From Bacteroidota bacterium (GTDB taxonomy: Bacteria > Bacteroidota > Ignavibacteria > Kapaibacteriales > UBA2268), in the NCBI GenBank assembly GCA_021780815.1, contig JAJXYC010000015.1, positions 461,796 through 525,795 on the forward strand: 64,000 nucleotides of DNA, read 5' to 3'. The translations under genes were made by a program, and so were the position numbers. A model generated the notes under the pieces. The model saw only the letters and a program-made list of their open reading frames with translations. It had not been told where the DNA came from and ran no database searches. Position 1 is the first letter of the stretch; every line of letters starts with the position of its first letter. Shown one piece after another: positions 4,079-14,010 of this stretch.

Positions 4079-5983
4079 ATGAAAATTTATTACTATTTAT
4101 TTTTATACATATTTTTAATTATTCCGGCAAAAAATATAGCATTAGCTAATGCAGATTCAACAGAAATATTCGCTATACAACCACGAATTGGTATTAATTA
4201 CAACTTTTATATAGCAGATTTTAATGGATACCAAGGCACAGTAGATTGTGGGCATTTTACAAATGGATTTGGCTGGGAAATACCATTAGGTATTTCATTA
4301 GAAAAATATTTCACTGTATCAACTTATGGCGAACTTGGTTTATTTTATAATTTCGGTAAGGGATCTTTAACACAATCAATGTCTTTCCCGATGCGAGATT
4401 TAAACAATGGTAATATTGTAGATGTTCAAACATCAAATCAATTAAATATGAATATATCGTTTTTAGAGTTAAATCCTTCAGTAGGATATGATATTTTTCA
4501 AAAAGATGATTATTTCACACGTTTAAATGGTGGTTTGAATTTTTCTATTCCTATAAAAAAGACATTTGACCAAAAGGAAGTCCTTTCTTCTCCAAGTAAC
4601 GCATATTTTGTTAATAATAATAACAATCACGTAAAGGAACGTCCTTTGGCAAGTGGAACAATTACCACTATGAACTCATTATTAATAGCACCAAAAGTAG
4701 CAATTGAAACTGTAACAAAAAGTTATGGTACATTTCATCTTTCAATTTCATATTTACTCAATAATTATACAAGCGATGTAAATTGGAAATCTTTCTCTGT
4801 ACGGTATGAATATGGATATAGATTTTCAATAAAAGAAGCCAAAAAAGAAGCACCAAAAATTATAGAAGTACCACCTGAACCAATTCCTGTAATTGTTGAA
4901 CCTAAACCAAGTATCACATTAAAAAATCTTCATATCGTAGGACAAATAGAATTTGGCAATGAATTGCTTGCAAGTTTACCTGTTGTTAATAGCGTATTCT
5001 TCCAAAATGAAAGTGCCGAAATACCCAACCAATATAAGACAAGAGATTTACCAGTATCTAACTTTTCAGGTGATGCTGTAAAAATTCACGATTATTTATT
5101 ACCAAGAATAGCCGAAATTGTTGCAAAAAATCCCAATGCTATTGTTACTTTACAATCGGCAACTTCGGGACAAACAAACGAACCAACAGGATTGGAACTG
5201 TCAAAAGCAAGAGCCAATGCAGTCAAAGATTATTTAATTAATCTGGGAGTGCCAAAAAATAAAATAAAAGAAGAATCTTTATTAACTCCTAAAAATCCAT
5301 CTAATCAAGATTTTAAAGAAGGAGTTGCAGAAAATCAACGTGTTGATCTAATTTTAACAAATGCTCCTTTACAAGAATACGTAAATTTGCAAAAATATGC
5401 TAATTTTAAAGGAAAACTTATTTTTGATGCGGACGTAAAAAACTTTAAAAATGAAAAAGTTGAAATTGAAAATAATTTAAATAATCAAAAAATACTAATT
5501 AATCATGCAGGAACGTACGAAATTCCGCTAAATTACAGATTGCCAGATAACTTTGTTCAAGACACAGCAAAAATTTCTTTCAATTTCAAAGGTCAAGAAC
5601 AACATTCTGAAAAAATTATACAATACAATGATTTCCCAAAACAACAAGTAAATTTAAATTTAGATAACTTTTTAGCAATTTTACGTTTTGATTACAATAG
5701 TAGTAAAATTAGCGATGAAAATCAAGAACTTTTAAAACAATTAGTGGCTAAATTGCCTACTGATGCTACAATTGAAATATTAGGAAGTACTGATGAGCTT
5801 GGGACACAACAAAGAAATGCTATTTTAGCTCATGAACGAGCTGAAAACACAATGAACTTTATCAAATCTATTTCAGGAGATAAATTGAATATTGTTATAG
5901 GCACTAACAACGATAAATTCCCAGAAGATACTCCACAAGGTAGATTTTTGAATCGCTCTATTAGAATTAAAGTTAAAAAATAA
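4079..5983 (+). CDS. OmpA-family outer membrane protein with N-terminal barrel-like region and two OmpA-like segments
   Basis: Signal peptide; OmpA-like segments LELSKARANAVKDYLINLGVPKNKI and ILRFDYNSSKISDENQELLKQL...ILGSTDELGTQQRNAILAHERAENTMNFI...GRFLNRSIRIKV. Confidence 0.8.
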   Translation: MKIYYYLFLYIFLIIPAKNIALANADSTEIFAIQPRIGINYNFYIADFNGYQGTVDCGHFTNGFGWEIPLGISLEKYFTVSTYGELGLFYNFGKGSLTQSMSFPMRDLNNGNIVDVQTSNQLNMNISFLELNPSVGYDIFQKDDYFTRLNGGLNFSIPIKKTFDQKEVLSSPSNAYFVNNNNNHVKERPLASGTITTMNSLLIAPKVAIETVTKSYGTFHLSISYLLNNYTSDVNWKSFSVRYEYGYRFSIKEAKKEAPKIIEVPPEPIPVIVEPKPSITLKNLHIVGQIEFGNELLASLPVVNSVFFQNESAEIPNQYKTRDLPVSNFSGDAVKIHDYLLPRIAEIVAKNPNAIVTLQSATSGQTNEPTGLELSKARANAVKDYLINLGVPKNKIKEESLLTPKNPSNQDFKEGVAENQRVDLILTNAPLQEYVNLQKYANFKGKLIFDADVKNFKNEKVEIENNLNNQKILINHAGTYEIPLNYRLPDNFVQDTAKISFNFKGQEQHSEKIIQYNDFPKQQVNLNLDNFLAILRFDYNSSKISDENQELLKQLVAKLPTDATIEILGSTDELGTQQRNAILAHERAENTMNFIKSISGDKLNIVIGTNNDKFPEDTPQGRFLNRSIRIKVKK

Positions 5984-7078: not shown

Positions 7079-8464
7079 ATGGCAATAATATCTTCAATTT
7101 CAGGGTTAAGGGCAACATTAAGCGATGATAGCTTAAATCAAAGTTTAATATACAAGTATGCAAAAGCATTCCATAAATTTTTACAAGATGGAACATTGAT
7201 CATTGGACGAGATGGTCGTCCTTCTGGTAAATGGATTGAAAAAGTACTAATAGAAACTTTCACCAAATTAGGTCGCAAATATATTGCAATTGGAGTTGTT
7301 CCCTCTCCTACTGTTCAATTGATTACACAAATAATGAATGCCGCAGGTGGAATTTCCATAACAGCATCGCATAACCCCGATGATTGGAATGGCTTAAAAT
7401 TTATTAATTCACAGGGAATATTCTTAGATAAAGATGAAAATATCAAATTGCAAAATATACTCGCTGCTATTCAGCACGAGGATAATGGTTCTTTGGTTCA
7501 ATCAAACTCTGATTTTAACGAAACTAACGAAGCAAATAAAAACGCTTTAACAGCACACATTGACAATATACTTAAATTACATTATATTACTGATTTTAAT
7601 ATAATAAATAAATTAGCAGAAATAAATTTAACAGCAGTAATTGATGCAGTAAACTCATCAGGTTCAGCCATAGTTCCAAATTTACTCGATAGAATGAACG
7701 TAAATTACAAGAAATTATATTGCGATGGCACAGGTATCTTCCCTCATTTACCAGAGCCTTTACCACAAAATCTACAAAAATTATCTAATACTGTTAAAGA
7801 AACAAAAGCAGATTTGGGAATTGCTGTAGACCCAGATGCTGATAGATTAGTGCTAATAGATGAAAATGGCATCCCAATTGGAGAAGAAAATACTATTGTG
7901 CTTGCAATTTATGCTCTATTGAGTTCAATTGACAATGCAAAAGAAGCGAAAATTGTTGTCAATCATTCTACAACAATGGGGGTAGAATTTATCGCAAGTA
8001 AATTTGGTGCAAAAGTTTTTAGGTCATCCGTTGGTGAAATTAACGTTGTTAAAAAGATGATTGAAGTTGGTGCAATGATTGGTGGAGAAGGTAGCGGCGG
8101 AGTTATTTTACCTGCTTCCCATTATGGTCGTGATTCGCTCGTCGGAATTTCTTTGATTTTATCATTAATTGCCCGTTCGGGTAAAACTTTAAGTCAATTA
8201 CGAAAAGAAATTCCTAATTACTTCTTAAAAAAAATTAAAATTGATTTTAATGGAGACCTAAATAAAAAAATTAATTTAATAAAGAATTACTATACCAACC
8301 AAGAAATCGTTTTAGAAGATGGGATGAAAATTAATTTTTCGGACTTTTGGATTCAAATTCGCAAATCAAATACTGAACCTATCGTCAGAGTAATTTGTGA
8401 AGCAATTAATTCTGACAAGTCCGAAAAAGAACTTGAAAAAATTTTAAATTTAATACAAGTTTAG
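7079..8464 (+). CDS. Phosphoglucosamine mutase / phosphomannomutase family protein
   Basis: IGRDGRPSG, catalytic ITASHNPDDWNGLKF, metal-binding VDPDADRLVLID, GGEGSGGVI, C-terminal RKSNTEPIVRVI. Confidence 0.9.
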   Translation: MAIISSISGLRATLSDDSLNQSLIYKYAKAFHKFLQDGTLIIGRDGRPSGKWIEKVLIETFTKLGRKYIAIGVVPSPTVQLITQIMNAAGGISITASHNPDDWNGLKFINSQGIFLDKDENIKLQNILAAIQHEDNGSLVQSNSDFNETNEANKNALTAHIDNILKLHYITDFNIINKLAEINLTAVIDAVNSSGSAIVPNLLDRMNVNYKKLYCDGTGIFPHLPEPLPQNLQKLSNTVKETKADLGIAVDPDADRLVLIDENGIPIGEENTIVLAIYALLSSIDNAKEAKIVVNHSTTMGVEFIASKFGAKVFRSSVGEINVVKKMIEVGAMIGGEGSGGVILPASHYGRDSLVGISLILSLIARSGKTLSQLRKEIPNYFLKKIKIDFNGDLNKKINLIKNYYTNQEIVLEDGMKINFSDFWIQIRKSNTEPIVRVICEAINSDKSEKELEKILNLIQV

Positions 8465-8501: not shown

Positions 8502-8529
8502 TTTTTTAGGTATTTTTTTAGGTATTTTT
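8502..8529. repeat. Overlapping 12-bp tandem repeat (TTTTTTAGGTAT x2 plus partial)
   Basis: ttttttaggtattttt at 8502-8517 and 8514-8529, directly upstream of the ECF sigma gene. Confidence 0.8.
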
Positions 8530-8565
8530 GTAACAATTAACCTTTTTTTTTATCTATTATATTAA

Positions 8566-9150
8566 ATGAAAGATAATTATGAAATATTAAGTGACGAAGA
8601 ATTGTTTTCACTGCTTTCAGAAAGCAAAGAGGTGAGTCATATTGCTTTTTCTATACTTTATAATCGTTACTCGAAGATAATATACACTTATATCTATAAA
8701 TTTTTAGGGAAAAATAAGTTCTTTATTCAAGATATATATCAGGAAGCTTTTATTAGGTTATATAAATTAGCACTTACAAAGCAATTTCAAGATATAACTA
8801 TGAACAATTTCCATTCATATTTGTATCAAATAGTCAAAAATCTGTGTATAAGCTATCACAACAACAAAGAAAGGCAAGAAAAAATGAAAGAGGAACTGGA
8901 ACAAAGCAATCATATAAATACTTCAAATGAAGAAGAAACTTTGGAATTAGTGAGAGAAGCCGTTGCTAAATTGCCTTATAATTTACGTGAAATTTTTATT
9001 TTAAGCGAGTATGAAGGTCTTTCTTATGATACAATTGAAAAAATAACTGGTATTAAACAATCCAATATCAGAGTGAGAATATATCGTGCCCGCAAGTTAA
9101 TTAAAGAAATGGTTGTCAATATGAGAAAACAAATGAATAAAGTGAGTTGA
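8566..9150 (+). CDS. ECF-family RNA polymerase sigma-70 factor
   Basis: Region 2 (FSILYNRYSKIIYTYIYKFLGKNKFFIQDIYQEAFIRLYKLA) and region 4 HTH (LPYNLREIFILSEYEGLSYDTIEKITGIKQSNIRVRIYRARKLIKE). Confidence 0.9.
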   Translation: MKDNYEILSDEELFSLLSESKEVSHIAFSILYNRYSKIIYTYIYKFLGKNKFFIQDIYQEAFIRLYKLALTKQFQDITMNNFHSYLYQIVKNLCISYHNNKERQEKMKEELEQSNHINTSNEEETLELVREAVAKLPYNLREIFILSEYEGLSYDTIEKITGIKQSNIRVRIYRARKLIKEMVVNMRKQMNKVS

Positions 9151-9153
9151 AAA

Positions 9154-10494
9154 ATGAATAAATCGGATTTAAATAAAACTGATAAATTGATTAATCAATT
9201 ATTTGATAAAGATATTAGTCCTCAAAAAAAGGAACATATATTAAAAGAACTTTCTCAATATCCTGAATATAAGAGTGAATTGGATATGTACAACGAGATT
9301 AACTCTGCTATTCAAAGCGATAAAGAAATCCTATCGCCTCCTATTGAATTTAAAAATGCAATATTTTCACAAATTCAATCTATATCAGAACAACATTTCA
9401 GTAAAGATCCAACTCATTATTCAAAATATATATTCTTTGGCGCCTTATTGTTGTTGTTTGTTTTTGTATCTTATTTTTCACTACATAACTTTTCAAATAA
9501 TTATCAAACGGTCAATAATCTAAGTAATTCAACAAATAAAACCGCCACACAAACAGAACAAAATCAAAAACAAAGATATACTCAATCTAATAGTTCTATA
9601 AACTCTAGTTCCGAGCATATTGAGGCAATTAATAACATATCTAATGATACAAAGTCTAATTCAAATAACTTTGAAGCAATAAAAAGTAATAACAATAAGA
9701 CATATACAAATCTATTAGATAATATTCAACCAAAAGCACGCAAAATCTCATCTAATGATGATATATCAAAAAATTTAAATGATATAAAGTCCGTAGATAG
9801 AGATATAGCGCCAACTCAAGGAATTACTTTTGAAAATACATCTATAACAGACAATAATCAAAATACAAATACTAAGGACAAGAGAACAAACAATATTTTA
9901 GCAATGAACAATATTGCCAGTTCCAACCCTTCAAGTAATAAATTTGCAATAATTAATAGTTTAAATAGCGGACTAAATGTATTCCGCCAATTCAACCCTT
10001 CTTATGAAAGTCCTAAATCATATATCTTAATTCAATATAGAGGTCTTTCAGCATTGTCAAATCCAGAAAAGAGTATTCAGCCAAACAATGCTTTTCTTGC
10101 AAATTATTGTTTAGGAATATTTTTAGAAACATTTAACGAACTATATTTTGGTGCAGAATTTGGCAATGAAACCTTTTCACAAATTTATTTAGACCAAAAC
10201 ACACAAATTAAATATGAACAAACTCCCAAAGTGTTTTATTTTGGAGTAGCAGGTAAATACAATTTAACAGACTATCATTTTATTGGAATTTATCCATCGG
10301 TACAACTCTTTGCAGGAAGTTCCTCGCTCGGTCCTGTATTTCGTTCTAATTTACTTTTGCAAAGCAATGCAATATCTAATAAATTCAGCATCTTTGCTGG
10401 AATTGAAGGTAGTACTGTCTTATATTCAAACCAAAATGTCTGGTATACTTCTAAAAAATTAAGTATAGTAGGAGGTCTTAACGTCAAACTCTAA
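9154..10494 (+). CDS. Putative anti-sigma factor with single TM helix, Asn/Ser/Thr-rich linker and C-terminal outer-membrane beta-barrel-like domain
   Basis: Starts 3 nt after the sigma stop; acidic/basic N-terminal head (~90 aa), TM YIFFGALLLLFVFVSYFSL, low-complexity linker, then alternating amphipathic strands ending KLSIVGGLNVKL. Confidence 0.6.
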   Translation: MNKSDLNKTDKLINQLFDKDISPQKKEHILKELSQYPEYKSELDMYNEINSAIQSDKEILSPPIEFKNAIFSQIQSISEQHFSKDPTHYSKYIFFGALLLLFVFVSYFSLHNFSNNYQTVNNLSNSTNKTATQTEQNQKQRYTQSNSSINSSSEHIEAINNISNDTKSNSNNFEAIKSNNNKTYTNLLDNIQPKARKISSNDDISKNLNDIKSVDRDIAPTQGITFENTSITDNNQNTNTKDKRTNNILAMNNIASSNPSSNKFAIINSLNSGLNVFRQFNPSYESPKSYILIQYRGLSALSNPEKSIQPNNAFLANYCLGIFLETFNELYFGAEFGNETFSQIYLDQNTQIKYEQTPKVFYFGVAGKYNLTDYHFIGIYPSVQLFAGSSSLGPVFRSNLLLQSNAISNKFSIFAGIEGSTVLYSNQNVWYTSKKLSIVGGLNVKL

Positions 10495-10522: not shown

Positions 10523-10560
10523 AAAACCCCAAGTTTGTAGAATTTTCTTGGGGTTTTTTA
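10523..10560. terminator. Rho-independent terminator between convergent genes
   Basis: AAAACCCCAAG...CTTGGGGTTTTTT stem with T-tract. Confidence 0.9.
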
Positions 10561-10586: not shown

Positions 10587-11483
10587 TTAGATTTCTTTTA
10601 AAGCATTCGCTCCTGATACAATCTCAATAATTTCTCTTGTAATATTTGATTGTCGTATATTGTTGTAAATCAAATTCAAGGAGTTAATTAAATCACCTGC
10701 ATTTGTTGTTGCATTATCCATAGCAACTCTTCTTGCTGCCTGTTCAGAAGCATTTGATTCTAAAATTGAATACCAAAAAATTGAATCAATTAATTTAGGA
10801 ATTAAAGAATTAAGGATTAATTTTTTATCTGGTTCAAATATAAAATTAGTGTTATACTTATCTTTTTTAACTATTTCATTTTTTGTATCAGGTATAAAAG
10901 GCAAAAGTTGAGTTTTTGCAGGAATTTGCTTTAATATATTTAAAAATTTTACAGAATAAATCAGCACTAAATCATATTCACCTAAAATAAATCTGTTCTT
11001 AATTGGATCAATAATTGATTTGACAACAGGAAATTCAGGATTGTTTGTAATATTTGCAAATTCTTTAATTATTTGGATATTTTGCTTCTTAAAAAACGAA
11101 ATAGCTTTCTTCCCTATTGGCAAAACCGAAATATTAGCAGATGGATATTCAGCAGGTAGTTGTTCAGAAATTGCCAAATTAGCTTCACGTAACAAGTTAG
11201 TGTTAAAACTACCACACATACCTTTATCAGCAGAAATCACAATCACAGCAATATTTTTAATATATTCGTGTTTTTCAAGAAATGGATGCACAAATTCTCC
11301 CCCTAATGAATCAATTATAGTGCTAATTGAGGAAGAAAGTTTAGAAAAATAAGGGCGAGAATCTTCAACCATATTTTGAGCTTTCCGCAATTTTGCAGTT
11401 GCAACCATTTTCATTGCTTGCGTTATTTTTTGAATGCTTTTAACTGAGTTTACTCTGCTTCTTATATCTCTTAATGTTGCCAT
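10587..11483 (-). CDS. atpG: ATP synthase F1 gamma subunit
   Basis: MATLRDIRSRVNSVKSIQKITQAMKMVATAKLRKAQ N-terminus; SADKGMCGSFNTNLL; C-terminal IYNNIRQSNITREIIEIVSGANAL. Confidence 0.97.
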   Translation of the reverse strand: MATLRDIRSRVNSVKSIQKITQAMKMVATAKLRKAQNMVEDSRPYFSKLSSSISTIIDSLGGEFVHPFLEKHEYIKNIAVIVISADKGMCGSFNTNLLREANLAISEQLPAEYPSANISVLPIGKKAISFFKKQNIQIIKEFANITNNPEFPVVKSIIDPIKNRFILGEYDLVLIYSVKFLNILKQIPAKTQLLPFIPDTKNEIVKKDKYNTNFIFEPDKKLILNSLIPKLIDSIFWYSILESNASEQAARRVAMDNATTNAGDLINSLNLIYNNIRQSNITREIIEIVSGANALKEI

Positions 11484-11501: not shown

Positions 11502-12461
11502 TTAAAAATAAATATTATCTTGTAGCAAATGATTATTAATATAATCATCAACACTTTCTTCAAGAGAAGAAAACTGATAATCAACTCCTGAGATCTTTAG
11601 TTTTTGCATATCAGCTTGTGTAAAATATTGATATTGTTTTTTAATATCATCAGGCATTTCAATATATTTAATATTAACAGACAATTTTAAAGATTGAAAT
11701 ACAGCAGTTGCTAGCTGCTTCCAAGTATGTGCAACTCCTGTTCCTAAGTTAAATATCCCTGATATTCTTTTATCAAATAGTTGCCAAACTACTTCAACAA
11801 CATCTTTTACATAAATAAAATCACGTAATTGCTCGCCATCTGCATATTTTGAATTATACGATTTAAAAAGAGAGATTGTTCCCGTATCCAAAGCTTGATG
11901 GAAGCTTTTAAATACCATACTTGCCATATTTTCTTTATGGTATTCATTAGGTCCAAACACATTAAAGAATTTGATACCTGTTATTTGAGATTCAAATTTA
12001 TGATTTAAAACCCACAAATCAAACAAGTGCTTGGAAAAGCCGTAACCATTAAGAGGACGTAAAGAATGGAATGTATCATCATTATATCCATCTTCTCCAT
12101 TACCGTAAGTTGCCGCACTACTAGCATAAATAAAAGGAATAGATTTGCTTATTGCAAATTCAGCTAATTTAATACTATAATGGTAATTATTCCTCATTAA
12201 ATAATCAATATCTTTTTCAGTTGTTGAAGAGCAAGCTCCTAAATGGAAAATGGCTTCAATATCTTTGTCCGCAAATTTGTTTAAATTATCAATAAATTCT
12301 TGCTTTTGAATATAATTAGAAAAGTTTTTACCGACAAGGTTTTTCCATTTTGAACTTGTTGACAAATTATCTACGACAAGAATATCATTATATCCTTTCT
12401 TGTTAAGATATTTTAAAAAGCATGAGCCAATAAATCCAGCACCACCGGTAAGTATAATCAT
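11502..12461 (-). CDS. hldD: ADP-L-glycero-D-manno-heptose 6-epimerase (NAD-dependent epimerase)
   Basis: MIILTGGAGFIGSCFLKYLNKKG, YASSAATYGNGEDGY, YGFSKHLFDLWVL, GIKFFNVFGPNEYHKENMASMVFK typical of HldD/RfaD. Confidence 0.9.
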   Translation of the reverse strand: MIILTGGAGFIGSCFLKYLNKKGYNDILVVDNLSTSSKWKNLVGKNFSNYIQKQEFIDNLNKFADKDIEAIFHLGACSSTTEKDIDYLMRNNYHYSIKLAEFAISKSIPFIYASSAATYGNGEDGYNDDTFHSLRPLNGYGFSKHLFDLWVLNHKFESQITGIKFFNVFGPNEYHKENMASMVFKSFHQALDTGTISLFKSYNSKYADGEQLRDFIYVKDVVEVVWQLFDKRISGIFNLGTGVAHTWKQLATAVFQSLKLSVNIKYIEMPDDIKKQYQYFTQADMQKLKISGVDYQFSSLEESVDDYINNHLLQDNIYF

Positions 12462-12465
12462 TCCC

Positions 12466-14010
12466 TTAATTATTTATAGTTTTAAAAAATGAATCGCACA
12501 CTTCTTTCAATTCTTTTTCAAGAGAATCTGAAATTTGTTTCTCTTTTAAAATAGTCTTCAATATATTTTTATTTTGAGACTTCATAAACTCTAAGAATGC
12601 AGATTCGGTTTTACGCACTTTATTAATATCTAAATTATCAAAATAACCATTAGTAGCCGCATAAAATACAGCAATTTGTTGTTCTACAGGAATAGGTTGC
12701 AAAGTAGGCTGTTTTAAAATTTCAGTGATTACATAACCCCTACGAAGTCTTTGCTGAGTAGATTTATCTAAATCAGAGCCAAATTTAGCGAAAGATTCAA
12801 GTTCTCTAAACATAGCATGCTCGATTTTCAATTTACCAGCAATTTTCTTCATTGCTTTGATTTGAGCATTACCCCCTACACGAGATACAGAAATACCTAC
12901 GTTCATAGCAGGGCGGATACCAGCATTAAATAAATTAGGTTCTAGATAAATTTGACCATCAGTAATAGAAATAACATTAGTTGGGATATAAGCAGAAACA
13001 TCACCTGCTTGAGTTTCAATTACAGGAAGAGCCGTAAGCGAACCACCTTTTAATTCATTTGATAATTTAGCAGCTCTTTCGAGCAATCTGCTATGCAAAT
13101 AGAAAATATCACCTGGATAGGCTTCACGTCCAGGAGGACGACGCAATAAAAGAGACACTTGACGATAAGCAGCGGCATGTTTCGATAAATCATCGTAAAT
13201 AACAAGAGCATGCATACCATTATCTCTAAAATATTCACCCATTGAGCAACCGCAATAAGGAGCTAAAAATTGTAATGGAGCTGGGTCGGAAGCATTGGCG
13301 GCTACAACAATGGTATAATCCATTGCACCTTGTTCTTGTAAAGTTTGTACAATTTGAGCAACCGTTGATGCCTTTTGACCTATTGCAACATAAATACAGT
13401 AAACTTCGTCAATCCCATTTTCTTTTGCCTCAGATGTATGAGTATATTTTTGATTTACAATTGCATCAATTGCTACTGACGTTTTACCTGTTTGTCTATC
13501 GCCAATAATTAATTCTCTTTGACCACGACCAATTGGTATCATTGCATCAATTGCTTTAATACCTGTTTGTAATGGTTCTTTCACAGGTTGTCTGAAAATA
13601 ACGCCTGGTGCTTTGCGCTCAATAGGATAGTAATCCTTATATTCAATTTTACCTTTTCCGTCAATTGGCTCACCTAAAGGATTAACTACTCTGCCAAGTA
13701 AATTCATCCCAACAGGAACTGATGCGATACGTCCAGTTCTTTTAACCGTATCGCCTTCTTTTACAAGGTTTTCTTCGCCAAACAAAATAACTCCAACACT
13801 ATCTTCTTCCAAATTCAAAGTCATTCCTACCACATCATTCGGAAACTCAACAAGTTCAGATGCCATCACTTTTTGCATACCATAAACTTGTGCAACACCA
13901 TCACCAATTTGTAGAACTGTGCCTATTTCATAAATATCTGATTCACTTTCATATCCTGATATTTGTCGCCTTATTATTGAAGATATTTCTTCCGGTTTTA
14001 ATTCGTACAT
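12466..14010 (-). CDS. atpA: ATP synthase F1 alpha subunit
   Basis: [15 protein letters not shown] Walker [34 protein letters not shown]. Confidence 0.99.

Follow-up and report, generated by a model that had tools for sequence, protein, structure and literature searches.

Does a single polypeptide connect the outer membrane to an ECF sigma factor? The question is raised by two adjacent genes in a 64,000-nucleotide stretch of DNA from a Bacteroidota bacterium of the order Kapaibacteriales (contig JAJXYC010000015.1), referred to here as the window. An initial annotation had proposed that the gene following the sigma gene encodes a sensor barrel and an anti-sigma factor in one chain. Both open reading frames, their lengths and the 3-nt gap between the sigma stop codon and the partner start codon were recovered as that annotation gave them. 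The features of the locus, in window positions, are listed below.

8529 to 8555, forward strand: ECF-type promoter TGTAAC-N16-TATCT, directly before the sigma gene, with the same element and spacing at five orthologues.
8566 to 9150, forward strand: ECF sigma factor gene, 194 amino acids (ORF list and Pfam; placed by the tree in a clade with the sigma factors of other pairs).
9154 to 10494, forward strand: partner gene, 446 amino acids, predicted envelope-spanning anti-sigma factor.
9154 to 9423, forward strand: predicted cytoplasmic head, amino acids 1–90, a helical bundle resembling class I anti-sigma domains (AlphaFold, profile matches).
9424 to 9483, forward strand: transmembrane helix, amino acids 91–110 (sequence, hydropathy).
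9484 to 10023, forward strand: disordered periplasmic tether, amino acids 111–290 (pLDDT, composition).
10024 to 10491, forward strand: predicted eight-stranded outer-membrane barrel, amino acids 291–446 (AlphaFold, fold search, family conservation, C-terminal residue).
10526 to 10554, no strand assigned: probable intrinsic terminator after the operon, ACCCCAAG-loop-CTTGGGGT followed by a T run, read from the sequence.

By its sequence the sigma protein is a normal ECF factor, with Pfam matches to Sigma70_r2 (1e-10) and Sigma70_r4_2 (1e-14). The partner matched no family in Pfam or NCBIfam; it is nevertheless not a chance ORF, because 56 of 61 related genomes contain homologues. A scan for sigma-70 promoters in the region gave no signal exceeding chance, and an RNA family search around the operon found none. 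Note that the 13-nt loop of the probable terminator exceeds the limits of the terminator scan that was run.

Several neighboring genes were also recorded. A phosphoglucomutase/phosphomannomutase gene (Pfam) lies upstream of the sigma gene both in the window (7079–8464) and at locus L039 (979–2343), and at loci L041 and L042 that position is occupied by an ORF of similar length. Close upstream, at 4079–5983, is a gene for a 634-amino-acid protein with a signal peptide, an apparently barrel-like N-terminal half and two OmpA-family stretches. An apparent NAD-dependent sugar-nucleotide epimerase, HldD-like by sequence, is encoded on the reverse strand at 11502–12461, between the genes for ATP synthase gamma (10587–11483) and alpha (12466–14010), which is an unusual insertion for an atp operon.

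The partner was modeled with AlphaFold using an alignment of nine sequences, which is shallow. Four helices were predicted in the head (amino acids 3–16, 23–33, 37–58 and 64–81). When a profile of 42 family heads was searched against the PDB, the first match was the anti-sigma domain of RsiW (1.3e-4), and DdvA (0.006) and RseA (0.02) were among the top five, with two phage scaffold-type proteins (0.018) ranked between these anti-sigma matches. At loose thresholds, RseA_N was matched in 5 of 42 family heads (best 1.6e-5) and zf-HC2 in 12 of 42 members; the window's own head, searched alone, gave no Pfam match to either. These matches are modest, and the interleaved phage proteins count against reading the head as an anti-sigma domain. 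The best reading of the head is still a class I anti-sigma domain lacking the zinc site. The description of the head as a hydrophilic N-terminal stretch of about 90 residues is thereby refined to a helical bundle with likeness to RsiW, DdvA and RseA. Known single-helix anti-sigma factors of class I (the RseA, RsiW and zf-HC2 types) share with the window protein a profile-related head, an operon with an ECF sigma gene and one transmembrane helix, but lack its long tether and outer-membrane barrel on the periplasmic side, and the window-type head differs in having no zinc ligands. In Bacteroidetes, only 6% of ECFs are found near a class I anti-sigma-type domain (PMC7406223).

The single transmembrane helix and the low-complexity stretch rich in Asn, Ser and Thr were both confirmed. 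Residues 91–110 carry a lysine on the N-terminal side and none close behind, and the AlphaFold model has a long helix running through this segment. The tether (residues 111–288, about 180 amino acids) is 51% N/S/T/Q and its sequence is not conserved across the family; pLDDT values were below 50 for residues 107–287, which are taken to be disordered. In one family member (L035, 712–1974) the tether is built from short near-repeats (RDTESATLARD...SEASRDTEVGR), and differences in repeat number may therefore alter tether length.

Exactly eight C-terminal strands, spanning residues 291 to 445, were predicted (291–302, 314–327, 330–345, 353–370, 379–388, 394–404, 411–426 and 429–445), in agreement with the barrel of about eight strands that had been anticipated. 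Folded alone, the domain gave a mean pLDDT of 79.5 and a pTM of 0.74. The best fold matches in the PDB were OmpA, NspA, Ail, OprF, OmpX and OmpW, and the C-terminus is accordingly modeled as an OmpA-like eight-stranded barrel. Identity to these structures is only 7–15%, and therefore the likeness concerns fold and not family. The barrel is the conserved region of the partner family, whose last residue is F in 34 of 47 members and L in nine; this fits a BAM signal, although it is no proof of an outer-membrane location.

The pairing with a sigma gene, which had been named as a point on which the proposal depended, proved to be conserved. A sigma gene lies directly upstream in all 50 full-length homologues examined, of which 48 were scored on the same strand by script and two by inspection (L011, where a run of N lies between the sigma gene and the partner, and L066, where the sigma ORF overlaps an over-long partner start). 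The putative anti-sigma factor is therefore encoded next to the ECF sigma factor that it presumably binds. In a phylum-wide sample the family was present in 25 of 25 genomes of the window's order, often in several copies; the highest number of matches in a single genome was 12 (G051). Full-length members also occur in another order of the same class (f18, locus L072); elsewhere in the phylum mostly the head alone was found, in short ORFs. When genome contigs were scanned with a 7-row alignment, the nearest named relatives of the partner protein came from Ignavibacteria bacterium GWF2_33_9 and Candidatus Kapaibacterium MAGs, which places the window in the Candidatus Kapabacteria lineage. Over 44 pairs, distances correlated at 0.82 for sigma and head, 0.65 for sigma and barrel and 0.67 for head and barrel, with shared species history contributing to these values.

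The operon is probably autoregulated. TGTAAC-N16-TRTYW was found about 10 nt before the sigma start codon in the window and at the five orthologues, that is, in 6 of 6 genomes examined. Within the window the promoter pattern has a single match, at 8529–8555, where 0.46 would be expected on average by chance. An order-wide form, GTAAC-N17-GTYW, precedes 22 of 47 sigma genes at one exact spacing and 0–2 at any other; in Markov-random sequence 0.06 are expected.

Genes for large secreted proteins are also preceded by this promoter, in the version seen at the window sigma gene and at its orthologues. Motif counts were taken from pattern searches and from sequence stretches. In six close genomes, TGTAAC-N-TTGTCT had 32 matches with a 15-nt gap, eight with 16 nt and 0–4 with other gaps; the −10 element of the window promoter (TATCT) departs from this cargo consensus. 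Most of the related motif matches in other genera of the family had different gaps. A type IX secretion (T9SS) sorting tail scoring above the curated cut-off was present in 22 of 32 complete genes downstream of intergenic motif sites in four genomes, where five of the 32 genes had no visible tail and were left out of the tail scan. Assuming a background of 6–8% of genes, the probability of this by chance is <1e-16; the window's own genome encodes 107 such tails in all. Because sites were chosen to be intergenic and away from contig ends, and those of G001 and G002 were left out, this enrichment should be regarded as an estimate. Nearly all motif-downstream genes encode a signal peptide by a crude test, and the motif is retained at orthologous cargo genes from at least two genomes. 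Five loci from three genomes (L233, L246, L251, L257 and L260) encode paralogous secreted proteins of about 1,900 amino acids with both a T9SS tail and the motif.

The design had been put forward as under-described. In this respect the proposal did not hold, as the same domain order has been published for the dual membrane-spanning anti-sigma (Dma) proteins of Bacteroides, which consist of an N-terminal anti-sigma domain, a transmembrane helix, a disordered tether and a C-terminal beta-barrel, are encoded adjacent to an ECF sigma gene, repress their sigma factor and affect vesiculation (OMVs) and polysaccharide loci (PMC13088901). Since the design is known from Bacteroides, the system can be called under-described for the Kapabacteria lineage only. 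A text search of the literature, with the original Dma and EcfO/Reo papers and the 2021 ECF re-classification outside its scope, found no mention of the Kapabacteria group. For comparison, 11 Dma-type proteins were collected from Bacteroidales-type genomes; locus tags were not used, and the proteins were recognized by linkage to NigD or as Dma3-like relatives fused to a sigma factor. GFO_1088-type sigma factors were tried as a route to Dma loci and rejected; their partners are short anti-sigma factors without a barrel. At two loci (L152, 316–2016, and L153, 1501–3141) a sigma factor, a Dma-like anti-sigma factor and a barrel are encoded in one ORF, as published for Dma3.

Three other readings of these data were weighed. 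The C-terminal domain could be a soluble periplasmic sensor, as in ordinary membrane-bound anti-sigma factors, given that outer-membrane topology is a prediction drawn from a shallow alignment; we regard this as very improbable and rejected it, since the strands are predicted to close into a barrel of eight, all leading fold matches are outer-membrane barrels, and 43 of 47 members end in F or L. With the barrel retained, the window protein could truly belong to the Dma family and have diverged far, its design inherited from a common Bacteroidota ancestor. The four-part order and the neighboring ECF sigma gene are common to both, both groups fall within Bacteroidota in the GTDB sense, and barrels diverge fast. 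Profile–profile comparison by hhalign, however, detected no homology between the window family and the 11 Dma-type proteins (probability 1.3% for the whole protein, 0.4% for the head and 4.4% for the barrel). The heads also differ in length and pattern, that of Dma being about 45 amino acids with W..LR..P..WE.LE, and that of the window type a 90-residue bundle of class I type. In the tree, one clade (support 0.906) unites the sigma factors of the 47 Kapabacteria pairs with a further sigma factor from the same class (L073, where the locus ends within the partner gene). A separate clade (support 1.0), which does not neighbor the first and does not contain the window sigma, is made up of the 11 Das-type (ECF21) sigma factors. 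Common descent with Dma is thus unlikely, and because neither head nor barrel has detectable homology to Dma and the sigma factors are in separate clades, the window system is probably a Kapabacteria-wide variant independent of Dma. It differs further in being order-wide with often several copies per genome and in its regulon, which is probably T9SS cargo.

The third reading accepts the operon as real but assigns the cargo promoters to another sigma factor, leaving the window sigma gene as a mere member of the regulon. The candidate is an orphan ECF-like sigma of the window's own genome (L005, 1177–1842; C7:338317–338982), which has no anti-sigma neighbor. It is strongly conserved (78–80%) and carries the TGTAAC motif upstream in 4 of the 5 genomes where it was found, which makes it a possible reader of the cargo promoters. 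It is a possible SigP-like regulator of T9SS genes: in Porphyromonas gingivalis, SigP governs the genes for T9SS components (PMC4800418). A search of one paper for a SigP motif found none. The window sigma is likewise an ECF factor, probably tied to type IX secretion, but SigP works with the PorXY two-component system on component genes (PMC4800418, PMC8265659), whereas the window sigma has a putative anti-sigma neighbor and probably mainly cargo genes. Against L005 as the reader, the motif stands close before the window-type sigma gene in every genome examined, as in autoregulated ECF operons, and a promoter of this type also precedes other pairs of the order. Moreover, no L005 orthologue was found in G003, an incomplete genome, despite motifs at its cargo genes. 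On balance we consider L005 a serious though less favored candidate, and give the window sigma roughly even chances of being the reader of the cargo promoters. Because L005 carries the same motif, the cargo-gating step is one that we infer, and the likely role of the window pair is that of an outer-membrane sensor gating the expression of T9SS cargo.

Our preferred reading, held with fair confidence, is an ECF sigma factor with a cognate envelope-spanning anti-sigma factor, the freed sigma reading its own operon and a set of mostly T9SS cargo genes. Within this model, membrane topology, sigma binding, the signal and the release step are parts that we infer. The class I head would hold the sigma factor in the cytoplasm, one helix would anchor the protein in the inner membrane, the disordered tether would cross the periplasm, and the OmpA-like barrel would sit in the outer membrane. 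A trigger at the barrel (a ligand, load or failed assembly of the barrel itself) would be relayed through the chain, with regulated proteolysis of the tether and transmembrane helix or a pull on the head as the most likely means, and the sigma would be freed. It would then read TGTAAC-N16-T(G/A)TYW promoters at its own operon and at a gene set made up mostly of large signal-peptide proteins with type IX secretion tails.

In signaling of the FecI-FecR-FecA type, the route runs from an outer-membrane barrel through an inner-membrane anti-sigma factor to an ECF sigma factor. A review of this type is available (PMC9249621). The same route is proposed for the window pair, with two differences: barrel and anti-sigma factor are separate proteins in the Fec type and one chain here, and the window barrel, at about 155 amino acids, is too small for a plugged TonB-dependent receptor. 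The novelty lies in a set that spans the order, seems to be separate, and combines a class I head with an autoregulatory promoter common to its members and, probably, a connection to T9SS cargo. To our knowledge, the first descriptions of one-chain signaling from outer membrane to transcription are recent and come from Bacteroides. We suggest, tentatively and at somewhat less than even probability, that envelope-spanning anti-sigma factors arose at least twice, and that in Kapabacteria a class I anti-sigma factor and an OmpA-like barrel were fused independently of Dma, multiplied within genomes and, in this clade, came to gate T9SS cargo expression from an outer-membrane sensor. If the set in this lineage is indeed unrelated, as it seems to be, the design is one that evolution can reach more than once. 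With as many as 12 matches in a genome, the family offers many natural variants in which to study signal passage along a disordered tether. Members of the regulon can be predicted from the conserved promoter, and the link to T9SS cargo, if true, would provide a testable regulatory circuit for the secreted proteins of Kapabacteria.
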